From the NCBI RefSeq assembly GCF_900112175.1, contig NZ_FOYT01000003.1:62001-126000 (forward strand): DNA of 64,000 bases. The letters run 5' to 3'. The position numbers and the translations under genes were made by a program. The notes under the pieces are model-generated. The model searched no databases. It was not told the DNA's origin and saw only the letters and a list, made by a program, of their open reading frames with translations. Source of the DNA: Halogeometricum rufum (GTDB taxonomy: Archaea > Halobacteriota > Halobacteria > Halobacteriales > Haloferacaceae). The number at the start of each line of letters is the position of its first letter. Position 1 is the stretch's first letter. Positions 26,667-31,797 of this stretch are shown here, in pieces.

Positions 26667-27560
26667 ATGTACGACCGCATCGTGATTGCTGTCGACGGGA
26701 GCGACGAAGCGAGGCGAGCAGCACGACGTGGCCTTCAACTGGCTCAGATGTTCGATGCGACCGCTACTGTTCTCTCCGTCGTCGAACGGAAGGCGCTCCG
26801 ACTCACGGAGACCTCCGCAGAGAAAACTCGGTTCCGAGAACGAGGAGAGGAAGCCCTCGCAGACGTCGAAGAACTCGCGTCCGAACTGGGCTACCCCGTT
26901 CGCACGAATCTGACCGAAGGCAAGCCCGCCGTCCGGATCAGCGAGTACGCGGACGAGCGGGGCGCAGACCTGATCGTCGTCGGGAGACAGGGGGTGACCG
27001 GGCTCGGTCGGCGTCTCCTCGGCGGCGTTACCGAACGGGTCCTCCATCGAAGCGACGTGCCCGTACTCGTCGTTCCGGGCGGAGACGACGCCGGGACGGA
27101 GTCCGGTTACTCGCGAGTCCTCCTCACGACCGACGGGAGCGAAAACGCCGACGTGGCGACTCCCCACGGAGTAGCGATCGCCCAGCGGTATCGCTCGGAG
27201 GTCCACGTTTTGAACGTCGTGGATCTCCAGACCGCGGGAGGCGTATTCAACGCGGGAGGCCTCGAAAGGGAGTTCGTCGAACGACTCGACGAGAGAGGCC
27301 GAGAAGCCGTCGACAGCGTTGCGGACGAAATCGCGAACGCCGCAGCGGAGTTGACTGTGACGACTGCCGTCGAACGGACGAGGGCGTACGAAGGGGTCGC
27401 CCCCGGTGTCCGCGAGTACGTCGAGGAAAACGAGATCGATCTCGTCGTGATGGGTTCGCACGGCCGGTCGGGCCTTCGGCGTCAGCTTCTCGGTAGTGTC
27501 GCTTCCACCGTGCTTCGGACGGTCGACGTTCCAGTTCTCGTCGTAAAGCGGCCCGGCTGA
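26667..27560 (+). CDS. universal stress protein, two UspA domains
   Basis: 297 residues. Domain 1 (1-145) starts MYDRIVIAVDGSDEARRAAR and ends with the ATP-binding loop VVGRQGVTGLGRRLLGGVTE. Domain 2 (150-297) starts YSRVLLTTDGSENADVATPH and ends VMGSHGRSGLRRQLLGSVAS, VLVVKRP. Both G-x2-G-x9-G(S/T) motifs are intact, so both domains should bind ATP. The role is in general stress survival; the target is unknown. It is transcribed divergently from the PNPOx-like gene. Confidence 0.9.
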   Translation: MYDRIVIAVDGSDEARRAARRGLQLAQMFDATATVLSVVERKALRLTETSAEKTRFRERGEEALADVEELASELGYPVRTNLTEGKPAVRISEYADERGADLIVVGRQGVTGLGRRLLGGVTERVLHRSDVPVLVVPGGDDAGTESGYSRVLLTTDGSENADVATPHGVAIAQRYRSEVHVLNVVDLQTAGGVFNAGGLEREFVERLDERGREAVDSVADEIANAAAELTVTTAVERTRAYEGVAPGVREYVEENEIDLVVMGSHGRSGLRRQLLGSVASTVLRTVDVPVLVVKRPG

Positions 27561-27835: not shown

Positions 27836-27851
27836 TTTAGGTCGGCCGAAA
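27836..27851. promoter_or_regulatory. upstream DtxR-like operator of first binding-protein gene
   Basis: TTTAGGTCGGCCGAAA matches the palindrome TTTAGG-N4-CCTAAA with one mismatch. It lies just upstream of the TATA-like TTTTAT (27861-27866), where a second repressor dimer could bind. Confidence 0.45.
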
Positions 27852-27870
27852 TCAGAACCGTTTTATTGGA

Positions 27871-27885
27871 TTAGGTGGACCTAAA
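27871..27885. promoter_or_regulatory. DtxR-like operator over start site of first binding-protein gene
   Basis: TTAGGTGGACCTAAA contains the perfect inverted repeat TTAGGT-GG-ACCTAA and ends 5 nt before the GTG start at 27891. With a TATA-like TTTTAT at 27861, transcription should start near the start codon, so the site covers the initiation point. The half-site TTAGG resembles that of DtxR/IdeR iron regulators. Confidence 0.65.
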
Positions 27886-27890
27886 ATCTG

Positions 27891-29150
27891 GTGTCAGACG
27901 ACGATCTAGCACACGAGGCCCCGACGCGGCGGGAGTACGTGAAGTACGGGGGAGCGTTCATCGGCGGAGGATTGCTTGCGGGCTGTACAGGCCAGCCCGA
28001 TACCGGAGGGACGCCGACGGCGGCGAGTACCGACACCGCAGCGGTCACCGAGACGGGAACGCAGACGGAGCAGGGCAGTTACACGGTCGAGATGTTCCCC
28101 GTCGGCGAGGTGGAATTCGAGTCCGTTCCGGAGTCGGTCACGACTTACTCGATGGCGTGGGCGGACATGGTAGTCTCGCTCGGACAGGCGGAGAAACTGC
28201 AGACAGACAGACTGAGTGGGCCCACGCTCTTCTACGACAGGTTCGACATCGACTACGACATGAACTGGCCACCGCTGTGGCAAGACGGCGGGATGCCCAA
28301 AGAAGTGTTCTACGAGCACGACCCAGACGCGTTCCTCATCGACCCGAATCTGATCCAGGCGTGGGACGACAACTGGGAGGACGCTGACGTCGAGGAGATC
28401 GAGTCGAACGTCGCCCCCTTTTTCGGGTGTATGAACCGCCGCTTCCGTAACGAGTGGCAGCAGGAGGTGGGGTACCCCGAACGGGCTCCGTCGATGCTGG
28501 AGGCGTTCGAGAAGGTCGGAGCGGTCCTGGACGAACGGACCCGGGTGGAGGCCTGGCTCGACCTCCACGAGGACCTCCAGTCCGAACTCCAGTCACGGAT
28601 TCCGGACGACCCCGAGACGCCGTCGATAGGCCTGATAAATAGCGGCTCCTCTCCCGAAAGCGGCGAGTTCTACGTGCTCTATCTCGAGGACAACGGATAC
28701 GAGATGAAGCCCTACCGCGACCTCGGGTTGGTCGAAGCGGACGCCTTCGCGGGCGTCGAGACCGGACAGTACGGACTGACCGACTACGAGACGTTGCTGG
28801 AAGTGGACCCGGACCTCATCCTCGTCCACTGGGGCATCACCACGGGGTCGGTGACCTTCGGCGGCGACGGCGCGTTCGACGCCGAACAGTTCCGCGAGAA
28901 GTTCGTCGCGCCGATGGAGAACGACGACGTCGGGAGCCAACTCACCGCGGTTCAGGAGGGACGCGTCCTCCCCGGTCCGACCGCGGAACAGGGGCCGCTC
29001 GTCAACGCGTTCCAGACCGAACTGACCGCACGGCTGTTCTATCCCGAGGAGTTCGGCGAACTCGACTTAGACGCGCCGTTGGACGTCTCCGAGGAAAAAC
29101 AGTTGTTCGACCGTCAGCGCGTCGCAGACATCCTCGATGGGAACCTCTGA
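27891..29150 (+). CDS. Tat lipoprotein, iron/siderophore-type ABC substrate-binding protein
   Basis: 419 residues. The N-terminus has a twin-arginine signal (TRREYVKYGGAFIGGG) followed by the lipobox LLAGC at about 27-31, then a Thr/Ser-rich linker, so it is exported folded and lipid-anchored. The rest is a FepB/FhuD-like binding fold: YTVEMFPVGEVEFESVPESV near 62-82 and YETLLEVDPDLILVHWG near 300. No permease or ATPase genes adjoin. It is paralogous to the gene at 30571 and has the same operator. A GTG start is chosen because the Tat signal begins here and the operator ends just upstream. Confidence 0.85.
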   Translation: MSDDDLAHEAPTRREYVKYGGAFIGGGLLAGCTGQPDTGGTPTAASTDTAAVTETGTQTEQGSYTVEMFPVGEVEFESVPESVTTYSMAWADMVVSLGQAEKLQTDRLSGPTLFYDRFDIDYDMNWPPLWQDGGMPKEVFYEHDPDAFLIDPNLIQAWDDNWEDADVEEIESNVAPFFGCMNRRFRNEWQQEVGYPERAPSMLEAFEKVGAVLDERTRVEAWLDLHEDLQSELQSRIPDDPETPSIGLINSGSSPESGEFYVLYLEDNGYEMKPYRDLGLVEADAFAGVETGQYGLTDYETLLEVDPDLILVHWGITTGSVTFGGDGAFDAEQFREKFVAPMENDDVGSQLTAVQEGRVLPGPTAEQGPLVNAFQTELTARLFYPEEFGELDLDAPLDVSEEKQLFDRQRVADILDGNL

Positions 29151-29430
29151 GCAACCGACGAATCACGACGTCGTCGTCGGTGGCGGACCGGCGGGCTCCT
29201 CAGCGGCCGTCTGTACCGCTCGGTATAGCCTCGACACGGTCGTGTTCGACGAGGGAAGCGTGGCCCTGCGACGCTGCGCATCTGAGAGAACTACCTCGGG
29301 TTCTCCGCCGGTATCGACATCGATACCTTCTACCCTGATGCACGCCCACGTCAGCAAGGTGGGATGTGATGTGATCACCGAGACGGTCACCACTATCACA
29401 CGCGAGGCGGCCGATTCGTCCGAGTCAGGC
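29137..29430 (+). pseudogene. FAD-dependent oxidoreductase (thioredoxin-reductase-like) remnant
   Basis: ATG at 29137 overlaps the end of the binding-protein gene by 14 nt. HDVVVGGGPAGSSAAVCTAR, YSLDTVVFDEGS is a dinucleotide-binding N-terminus (GGGPAG). After a frameshift near 29280 the second frame reads ENYLGFSAGIDIDTFYP. A second shift near 29335 restores LMHAHVSKVGCDVITETVTT. Nothing follows: the remaining two thirds of the enzyme are absent. Such a gene often follows iron-binding-protein genes in haloarchaea, so a reductase of the uptake operon has been lost. Confidence 0.75.
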
Positions 29431-29503
29431 GTCGGGAGAGTACCGAGAATCCGATCCACCTCTCTCGTAACACTCCCAGAGAGGTCCGACGCCCGCCCGA
29501 AGT

Positions 29504-29923
29504 TCAGTCGCGGTCACCCGCGGGAACGGTGAGGACGGGAACGGGTGAGAGTCGAACCACTCGTTCGGCGACGCTTCCCACGACGAGACGGTCGATGCCC
29601 GACCGTCCGTGGGAGCCGACGACGAGGACGTCGATGCCGCGTTCGGAGACGTACTCCAGTATCTCTTCGTGCGGATTCCCCTCCGCAATCTCGGTCACGA
29701 CGGAGAGTCCCGCTTGCGTTCCCGTCACCTCGACGTCTCGCAGTGCCTCACGCCCCTCGTCCCGGAGCGCTTCCCGTAACGGTCCCGAGCGTGCGACTCG
29801 AAAGTCGACGACGTACAGGGCGTGGAGAGTCGCCTCCCACCGCGTCGCAATATCGATGGCGTGTTCGAGTGCGGCTTCCGCACCCCGGCTCCCGTCGGTT
29901 GGAATCAAGATGTCGTCGTACAT
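29504..29923 (-). CDS. universal stress protein, single UspA domain
   Basis: 139 residues from the ATG at 29923 (MYDDILIPTDGSRGAEAALE). The ATP-binding loop VVGSHGRSGIDRLVVGSVAE lies near residues 107-126, followed by VVRLSPVPVLTVPAG. A further in-frame stretch upstream to 30076 is not protein-like. It lies between the two orphan binding-protein genes on the opposite strand. Confidence 0.88.
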   Translation of the reverse strand: MYDDILIPTDGSRGAEAALEHAIDIATRWEATLHALYVVDFRVARSGPLREALRDEGREALRDVEVTGTQAGLSVVTEIAEGNPHEEILEYVSERGIDVLVVGSHGRSGIDRLVVGSVAERVVRLSPVPVLTVPAGDRD

Positions 29924-30202
29924 ACCTACCGTTGACGTGGGAGCAGTATCAAAGCCACCGGGTCGACAGTCGCACCGCGTGTCATCGAGACGGTGCTCCG
30001 GACACTCCACGTGTTGGGCGTGACTCCCGAGACCGGCCAAGTCGTTCGATACGGCCGTGCCGAAACTAGCACGCACATCGCCGGTCCTCCCGCTTCACCT
30101 CCGACGTCGGATGCCCGAATACGACGATGCGAGTCGACGTGACCTCCTCGCGACAGTCGTGGTATCTCCTCGCAAACAAAAGCGCCCGTTTGAGCTATGG
30201 TC

Positions 30203-30236
30203 GTATATTTAACAGATAGACGAGTAGAACGAGGTG
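30203..30236 (+). promoter_or_regulatory. TATA box and ribosome binding site of small membrane gene
   Basis: GTATATTTAA (30203-30212) is a good TATA box, and GAGGTG (30231-30236) sits 6 nt before the ATG at 30243. A real Shine-Dalgarno is unusual among genes here and decides this start over the GTG at 30234. Confidence 0.55.
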
Positions 30237-30242
30237 AGAACG

Positions 30243-30431
30243 ATGTATCCGGTACAAACCGTCTACCCACTCGCCTTAGCCGGAGTAAACGTCACCGTCG
30301 GTTCGCTTCTCTACTACCTGCTCGAATCGCTCCTCGGAGTTTCGCTGGTCGCAGTCGGAGTTCTCGTCGTCTGTGCCGTAATCGGAAGGACAGCCTGCGA
30401 ACACAACCCTGTACGCGGGAAATCCGCGTGA
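30243..30431 (+). CDS. small membrane protein, unknown function
   Basis: 62 residues: MYPVQTVYPLALAGVNVTVG, SLLYYLLESLLGVSLVAVGV, LVVCAVIGRTACEHNPVRGK. One or two hydrophobic helices cover about residues 8-48, with a short polar tail. It has its own TATA box and SD sequence. No family is recognised, and it could be a regulator or accessory of a membrane complex. Confidence 0.6.
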   Translation: MYPVQTVYPLALAGVNVTVGSLLYYLLESLLGVSLVAVGVLVVCAVIGRTACEHNPVRGKSA

Positions 30432-30550
30432 GTGCTTCCCGCGCACTTCCCTGATTCGGCGGACCGCATCGAGTATCCGCCGACGGAAGCGTCCGAACGA
30501 ATTGCCTTCGGAGGATTCGGCTCGGAAAGGAACCAGAACTGTTTTGTTGT

Positions 30551-30566
30551 TTTAGGCTGGCCTAAA
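30551..30566. promoter_or_regulatory. DtxR-like operator over start site of second binding-protein gene
   Basis: TTTAGGCTGGCCTAAA is a perfect inverted repeat (TTTAGGC-TG-GCCTAAA) ending 4 nt before the ATG at 30571. Position and sequence match the operator at 27871, which argues for one metal-dependent repressor controlling both genes. Confidence 0.7.
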
Positions 30567-30570
30567 TCTC

Positions 30571-31797
30571 ATGGGAGAAGACGGCTGTGAAGACGAAGCA
30601 CCGACGCGGCGAGACTACGTGAGATACACCGGTGCTGTCTTCGGCGGCGGACTGCTGGCGGGCTGCACGGCCGAGAACGGTTCCGGAACGACCCCCCACT
30701 CGACGGAGACGGCCGCTCAGACGACGGCCACGGACATCGCCACAGCGACGCAGGCGGAGACGACGGCGGGGAACGACGCCTACACCGTCGAGATGGCGCC
30801 GGTCGGAGAGGTGACCTTCGAGTCGGTCCCCGAGACGTGGCTCCCGTACGGTGGCGACTACGCCGACATAGGGGTCGCCCTCGGGCAGGCGGACGGGATG
30901 CTGGGTATCGGTCAGGCCGGAGAGTACCACACCGACCCGTACGAGGAACTGCCGGGCGTGAGCGTCGACGAAGACGAGCTAGCGGAACACGACCTCGTCG
31001 AGGCCGACATGTCAAAAGAGCTGTTCTACGAACTCGGCGCCGACGTCCACGTCGTCGATACGGGGATGCTGCGAAACTGGTTCGACTGGAGCGACGGCGA
31101 CGTCGAGGAGATTCGCGAGAACGTCGCGCCGTTCCTCGGGAACACGATCTTCCGGCGGTCCGACGGCTGGCACGACTACCGCTACTACACCCTGTATCAG
31201 GCCTTCGAGAAGATGGCCACCCTCTTCGGAGAACGCGAGCGCTTCGAGGCGCTGAAATCGCTCCACGACGAGTTCGTCGCCGACCTCCAGTCGCAGTTAC
31301 CCCCTGCCGCCGAGCGACCGACCGTCTTCCTCACCTTCGAGGGGACCGACGAACCCGAGACGTTCTCGCCGTATCGACTCGCCGACCAGGGGACGAGCAA
31401 GAAACAGTGGAACGACCTCGGCGTCAGCGACGCGCTGGCCGGCACCGGTATCGAGAACCTGAGTACCGAGAACCGCGGCGAACTCGACTACGAGAACCTG
31501 CTCACCGTCGACCCGGACGTGCTCCTGATTCGGGGTCACGAGGACAAATCGGTCGCGGAGTTCAGGGACACCGTCCTCGCGTACATGGAAGGCCACCCGG
31601 TCGCGAGCGAACTGGCGGCCGTGCAGAACCGGCGGGTGTACCGCGGGGGATACCTCCGACAGGGGCCGATCCAGAATCTGTTCCTCACGGAACGCGCCAC
31701 CCAACAGCTCTATCCGGACACGTTCGGGGAAGTGACATCCGACGAACGACTGTTCGACCGCCAGCGAGTCGCCGACATCGTCGCGGGGGCGTTCTGA
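30571..31797 (+). CDS. Tat lipoprotein, iron/siderophore-type ABC substrate-binding protein
   Basis: 408 residues. The Tat signal is PTRRDYVRYTGAVFGGG and the lipobox LLAGC lies near residues 26-30, with a Thr-rich linker after it. The mature part is like its paralogue at 27891: YTVEMAPVGEVTFESVPETW, YENLLTVDPDVLLIRGH, and the shared C-terminus LFDRQRVADI. It would capture a ferric siderophore or related chelate at the cell surface for a permease encoded elsewhere. The two paralogues have diverged clearly, suggesting different ligands. Confidence 0.85.
   Translation: MGEDGCEDEAPTRRDYVRYTGAVFGGGLLAGCTAENGSGTTPHSTETAAQTTATDIATATQAETTAGNDAYTVEMAPVGEVTFESVPETWLPYGGDYADIGVALGQADGMLGIGQAGEYHTDPYEELPGVSVDEDELAEHDLVEADMSKELFYELGADVHVVDTGMLRNWFDWSDGDVEEIRENVAPFLGNTIFRRSDGWHDYRYYTLYQAFEKMATLFGERERFEALKSLHDEFVADLQSQLPPAAERPTVFLTFEGTDEPETFSPYRLADQGTSKKQWNDLGVSDALAGTGIENLSTENRGELDYENLLTVDPDVLLIRGHEDKSVAEFRDTVLAYMEGHPVASELAAVQNRRVYRGGYLRQGPIQNLFLTERATQQLYPDTFGEVTSDERLFDRQRVADIVAGAF

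Follow-up and report, generated by a model that had tools for sequence, protein, structure and literature searches.

What controls two orphan genes for iron-type binding proteins in Halogeometricum rufum, and do the palindromes that precede their start codons belong to a wider iron regulon? Both genes lie in a 64-kb window (C3:62001-126000, the whole stretch of DNA that was analysed) of the 4.19-Mb genome and are given here in window positions. Gene 1 (27891-29150, forward strand, GTG start, 419 aa) and gene 2 (30571-31797, forward strand, ATG start, 408 aa), whose products share 38% identity, encode siderophore/ferrichrome-type substrate-binding lipoproteins with twin-arginine/lipobox starts. 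Both score above the gathering cut-off of PF01497 (Peripla_BP_2; 30.9 and 55.8 bits against 27.5), in agreement with an earlier note on this DNA that had described them as iron-type, and neither had an NCBIfam match. Neither gene has an adjacent permease, and a genome-wide PF01032 search found no more than two strong matches to FecCD permeases, one at C1:1168109 and the other at C7:85054, neither of them in the window, which bears out the term orphan used in that note. Their family and the regulon described below suggest that a ferric siderophore is the ligand of both proteins. The palindromes are very probably operators through which a DtxR-family repressor, activated by metal, controls an iron-acquisition regulon; it would block the core promoter when iron is plentiful. 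This reading starts from direct observations: where the sites lie and how they are enriched, arranged, paired and conserved across relatives, and which genes they precede.

Gene 1 carries two of the sites. Its proximal operator ATTAGGTGGACCTAAA (27870-27885, forward strand; palindrome core TTAGGTGGACCTAA at 27871-27884) lies between the TATA box and the GTG start codon at 27891, beside the predicted leaderless transcription start site, and its distal operator TTTAGGTCGGCCGAAA (27836-27851, forward strand), which has one mismatch, stands 34 bp upstream of the proximal one. The core promoter fits between the two (27853-27867, forward strand) and comprises a TFB recognition element (BRE)-like CAGAACC at 27853-27859 and a TATA-like TTTTATT at 27861-27867. 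At gene 2 a perfect operator, TTTAGGCTGGCCTAAA (30551-30566, forward strand), follows a TATA-like TTTTGTT (30542-30548, forward strand) and precedes the ATG at 30571, and no distal operator with at least 8 of 10 matches was found upstream. The distances given in the earlier note, where the two palindromes end 6 nt before the GTG and 4 nt before the ATG, are exact to the base, and the near-match that it mentioned upstream of the gene 1 TATA box is correctly placed. What that note missed is that this near-match is a genuine second operator, one half of a conserved pair that encloses the BRE and the TATA box. Searching the whole window with TTTAGGN4CCTAAA and up to two mismatches returned three matches, which are the three palindromes and no others; the chance expectation for the same pattern is 0.18 on average and 0 of 100 dinucleotide shuffles of the window reached three.

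The enrichment of the motif at other iron genes, a check proposed in the earlier note, was assessed over the 4.19 Mb. Perfect TTAGGN4CCTAA occurs at 17 sites, with few exceptions beside genes for iron or metal, against 0 for the reversed-pattern control, so that the outcome which would have refuted the note did not occur and its interpretation is supported. Allowing one mismatch added 12 sites, 7 of which are paired at 31-36 bp with another site, and the reversed control gave 22 sites in all at this level. All seven siderophore-type binding-protein genes of the family of genes 1 and 2 (two in the window, two on C7, two on C4 and one on C1) have an operator 4-8 nt before the start, at positions -18 to -20 relative to it. 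Among the remaining three PF01497 genes, no nearby site with at least 8 of 10 matches was found at two, and the nearest site of the third is imperfect and lies about 0.9 kb upstream. An operator also precedes the FecCD permease and ATPase operon at C7:84910, whereas the second strong FecCD permease (C1:1168109) adjoins a PF01497 gene (C1:1169342) that has no site. Operator-bearing binding proteins thus outnumber operator-bearing permeases by 7:1, since sites are found at seven of the former but at one of the two strong permeases, and we propose with moderate confidence that the seven scattered paralogues share the single operator-controlled FecCD/ATPase system on C7. The two window promoters come from paralogous genes of common lineage, and this could be taken to mean that the palindromes are chance occurrences or inherited promoter repeats without function. 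We regard the probability of this as practically negligible in view of the genome-wide and family-wide enrichment with controls at zero and of the conservation of the sites across unrelated target genes and an RNA gene; a chance origin of the sites was ruled out by the shuffles and the reversed-pattern controls.

Other targets extend beyond siderophore uptake. Operators were found at an SBP_bac_6-type ABC transporter (C5:199521), an FAD oxidoreductase (C4:226999) and an amphi-Trp protein (C4:216599), and operator pairs at a NifU-like gene (C3:246117/246148; L030:6118-6162), at an operon of DUF7551/7552 and DtxR genes (C3:248302/248337) and at a heavy-metal P-type ATPase with an SPC motif (C3:275746/275778; L031:5747-5792). 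The sites are therefore common to several iron uptake genes and also adjoin a DtxR-family gene, both of which are traits of archaeal DtxR-family regulons. A perfect operator precedes the gene for a 387-aa protein just upstream of the SBP_bac_6-type operon (C5:198268; L035:6269-7465); this protein had no Pfam or NCBIfam match, and a similar one adjoins an operator pair in a Salinirussus contig (L145). Another perfect operator lies 9 nt before an operon encoding gluconate-2-dehydrogenase subunit 3 and a GMC oxidoreductase (C1:1590548; L028:4549-6795), an unexpected member of an iron regulon.

The arrangement seen at gene 1 is conserved in relatives. The comparison covered 105 promoters from homologues of these binding-protein genes within the family, a set in which close homologues of gene 2 are over-represented. 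At least 82 of them carry a site with 9 or more of 10 matches between -17 and -21, counted from the start codon (shuffle mean 0.04), a lower bound because five loci without an identifiable start were left out and a few starts are possibly wrong. A second, distal site is present in 55 of the 105 promoters (shuffle mean 0.33), in 51 of them at -54/-55, and 47 of the 54 promoters with both sites have a spacing of exactly 36 bp. The logo of the 82 promoters reads, in order, distal operator, a few nucleotides, BRE (CGAAA), TATA (TTTAT), a few nucleotides, proximal TTTAGGCNNGCCTAAA, 4-6 nt and the start codon, and the BRE and TATA columns agree with the positions of these elements at gene 1. Its consensus TTTAGGCNNGCCTAAA contains the inverted TTAGG/CCTAA with a 4-bp spacer, as expected from the DtxR/IdeR-type half-site recognised in the earlier note. 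The TATA box stands about 24-29 nt before the start codon and therefore fits leaderless transcripts, which supports the promoter geometry that had been suggested.

Operator pairs 33-36 bp apart were found in 50 of 60 genomes of the same family (25 of 28 genera) with a control of 0 in all, and in most cases they stand on either side of the BRE and TATA box in a leaderless promoter; one lies at 276742 in Halogeometricum pallidum JCM 14848 (NZ_AOIV01000021). A strict-pair scan of about 85,000 prokaryote species, which is a sample and not a census, gave at least 118 stretches. Among the matches listed, to which the rest of this paragraph applies, nearly all belong to Halobacteria, Poseidoniales, marine group III (MGIII) and Methanosarcinaceae, i.e. 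Euryarchaeota, the exceptions being one Ruoffia (a Firmicute) and one Thermoleophilaceae contig. Their neighbours, named by N-terminal sequence or, for DtxR genes, by phmmer, encode periplasmic binding proteins (PBPs), siderophore-synthesis (dat-like), FTR1-like and FeoB-like proteins, DUF7552(-DtxR) operons and DtxR proteins. The DtxR genes stand beside the pair at 43 bp in MGIII and at 20 bp in Ruoffia tabacinasalis (L232). The latter is the single strict pair that is clearly bacterial and has a regulator next to it.

How would such sites act? Each TTTAGGCNNGCCTAAA-type palindrome is predicted to be one dimer site, the equivalent of the IdeR 'half site', so that two sites would flank the BRE/TATA core at gene 1 and one would cover the stretch from TATA to start codon at gene 2. 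In iron-replete cells the holo-repressor would occupy the proximal site, and the distal site where present, and no start complex of TATA-binding protein (TBP), transcription factor B (TFB) and RNA polymerase would form. The proximal dimer would block polymerase between TATA and start, at a position matching that of DtxR/IdeR sites over promoter or start if the predicted start of transcription is correct, and the distal dimer, abutting the BRE, should hinder TFB. Upon iron starvation the repressor would leave and leaderless mRNAs of both binding proteins would be made. We hold such a steric block by bound dimers with moderate confidence.

The sites could instead serve activation or fine tuning, with the distal operator recruiting or positioning factors. 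At the P-type ATPase and the NifU-like gene the operator pair lies entirely upstream of the TATA box, a position that suits an activator, as with dual DtxR-family regulators, and that suggests activation of these two by the same regulator. In relatives, close orthologues of the short form of this P-type ATPase are rare and the other loci have no sites. P-type ATPases with the SPC motif include Fe/Co exporters. As an account of the regulon in place of simple repression, activation is very unlikely, because the site at the window genes takes up the interval from TATA to start, so that a dimer bound there should keep polymerase out, and because such genes are induced in low iron (PMC11349517).

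The proposed repression by bound dimers has close parallels in bacteria. The half site of the Actinobacterial IdeR/DtxR box TTAGGTTAGSCTAACCTAA is exactly the H. rufum motif (PMC10317159); in Saccharopolyspora this IdeR half site, TTAGGN4CCTAA, binds one dimer (PMC10317159), and in genes repressed by IdeR the box likewise covers the start site or the promoter. In contrast to the 19-bp IdeR box, in which the dimer sites overlap, the H. rufum sites stand 33-36 bp apart astride an archaeal core promoter. The extra repeats of a full 19-bp IdeR box were not found in the flanks of any site of the H. rufum genome, so that full boxes are ruled out and the half-site form alone is present. A Fur box is ruled out as well, the motif being unlike the GATAATGATAATCATTATC type. 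Among archaea, the TroR regulon of Haloferax volcanii is similar in that a DtxR-family regulator governs haloarchaeal iron uptake. Its motif, in work by Martinez Pastor and colleagues from 2024, reportedly lies some 100 nt ahead of the start codon, against 4-8 nt in H. rufum with a second copy about 36 bp beyond the first, a contrast that is a lead and not a test. The archaeal FetR/'ferR' signal (Leyn and Rodionov 2015, applied in PMC11349517) is likewise a DtxR-family signal before siderophore transport genes. In Hfx. volcanii it is present at all fhu genes, which include 11 fhuD paralogues and two permeases, an excess similar to that in H. rufum, and low iron raises five fhuD genes by more than 4-fold (PMC11349517), a further likeness if the H. 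rufum genes respond as predicted. The regulon and its orphan paralogues are thus already known (PMC11349517), and the window genes are two further members. The conserved bracketing of the core promoter by two operators suggests a refinement, no description of which was found in the literature searched, with Leyn and Rodionov 2015 and the TroR paper outside that search.

Which protein occupies the operators? Three DtxR-type proteins with PF01325 and PF02742 domains are encoded in the genome: a three-domain regulator with a FeoA domain (C1:999975), found in 60 of 60 genomes; a two-domain protein (C1:1047134), with homologues in essentially all genomes; and an accessory regulator beside a DUF7552 gene (C3:246598-246972), just under the PF02742 cut-off. 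We have strong confidence that the binder would be a DtxR-family protein and moderate confidence that Fe would be its co-repressor. The accessory regulator, rather than one of the two universal proteins, could be that binder, since it is located amid four sites and, in other genomes, such sites occur close to its homologues. Genomes with many pairs (G010, G016, G018, G019, G022 and G030) nevertheless have no close homologue of it, the best match being about 30-33% identical, so that the motif does not depend on the accessory regulator. Its distribution across genomes rules it out as a necessary binder and favours one of the other two proteins, and we consider it a rather unlikely candidate. 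Between these two we lean towards the three-domain regulator as the probable binder because of a published correlation in Haloferax mediterranei, in which a three-domain DtxR rises as the genes for iron PBPs, permease, ATPase, FAD oxidoreductase and siderophores fall together (PMC11218638).

A manganese-sensing, MntR-like member of the family might also bind the palindromes, in which case the genes would be Mn-repressed. This has a basis in the NCBIfam scores of the three-domain regulator, highest with MntR (220.9, where 350 bits are needed) and lower with DtxR (110.6, where 290 are needed), both below cut-off. It appears quite unlikely given that the targets are siderophore-type binding proteins and permease and an SBP_bac_6-type ABC transporter, joined in relatives by FTR1-like, FeoB-like and siderophore-synthesis genes, and that fhuD homologues are induced by iron starvation in Hfx. 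volcanii (PMC11349517).

Several points nevertheless weigh against the proposal of an iron-activated repressor acting from paired sites. Mn or another metal may be the co-repressor, as the closest NCBIfam families to the three-domain regulator are MntR and DtxR, with neither cut-off reached. The preferred site of this regulator is uncertain because its own start carries, at -22, a different conserved palindrome, TTAGACNNGTCTAA (L016 ~1479-1492; L377-L406), with a half-site unlike the regulon motif. Two or three members of the DtxR family are candidate binders of the operators. Finally, gene 2 and several paralogues have the proximal operator alone, and the pair is thus not required.

One operator pair, at C2:382836/382872, reads toward a stretch without a plausible gene. 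There we identified a candidate two-hairpin non-coding RNA (C2:382887-382983, forward strand; L029:4887-4984; relatives L418-L433), which adjoins a DUF7553 gene. The pair was also considered as an activator site upstream of DUF7553, which is ruled out because the orientation of BRE and TATA drives the opposite strand, into the RNA. In relatives the place holds a shared non-coding sequence, whose features are a conserved UCUGUCCC linker, a GUGGGCAUCA loop and two hairpins. A covariance model built from 8 sequences gave one strong match each in 16 of 119 family genomes (E 1e-18 to 2e-11), with the next match only at E 8e-4, and paired operators 35-36 bp apart directly precede the RNA in 16 of 16. 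Ten of these genomes are outside the model by their own handle, two of them being the same as or close to contigs used (Haloprofundus, Halogranum), so that about 8 of the 16 matches are independent of model building, several of them from the same genus. The 5' stem shows compensatory changes at several pairs. Since stem pairs covary and the spacing between blocks varies by non-multiples of three, a small protein is ruled out. Nothing in Rfam came near its gathering score, and no strong match was found outside the family in a search of 195 genomes of the order.

We consider this RNA a candidate iron-starvation small RNA (sRNA) and the most novel lead of this work. It would resemble the RyhB-type iron-sparing sRNAs of bacteria in being short and having a promoter with operators of the iron repressor; it differs in being archaeal and in having no Rfam match, the likeness being one of promoter and not of sequence. 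We give about even odds to the joint proposal of a Euryarchaeal clamp, formed by two single-dimer operators 33-36 bp apart astride BRE/TATA, and of a clamped iron-starvation sRNA in Haloferacaceae as an archaeal counterpart of RyhB in function, whose exposed UCUGUCCC linker and GUGGGCAUCA loop would be part of the regulatory RNA. The analysis turns a local motif into a testable rule of iron control in Euryarchaeota, namely where a repressor has to sit to silence an archaeal promoter, often with a second site kept abutting the BRE. Orphan binding-protein genes scattered over several contigs form one regulon around an apparently single permease, and the RNA is a specific candidate, open to deletion, for an archaeal sRNA that responds to iron.

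In the window itself, UspA-like universal stress protein genes, assigned by eye (26667-27560 and 29504-29931), flank and separate genes 1 and 2, and no operator was found at their starts. Behind gene 1 lies a decayed remnant of an NAD(P)/FAD-dependent oxidoreductase (Pyr_redox_2; 29137-29532, forward strand), which is 51.5% identical over 66 aa to an intact copy on C4 (L033:16090-16995). This intact copy has a perfect operator of its own, 4 nt before its start.

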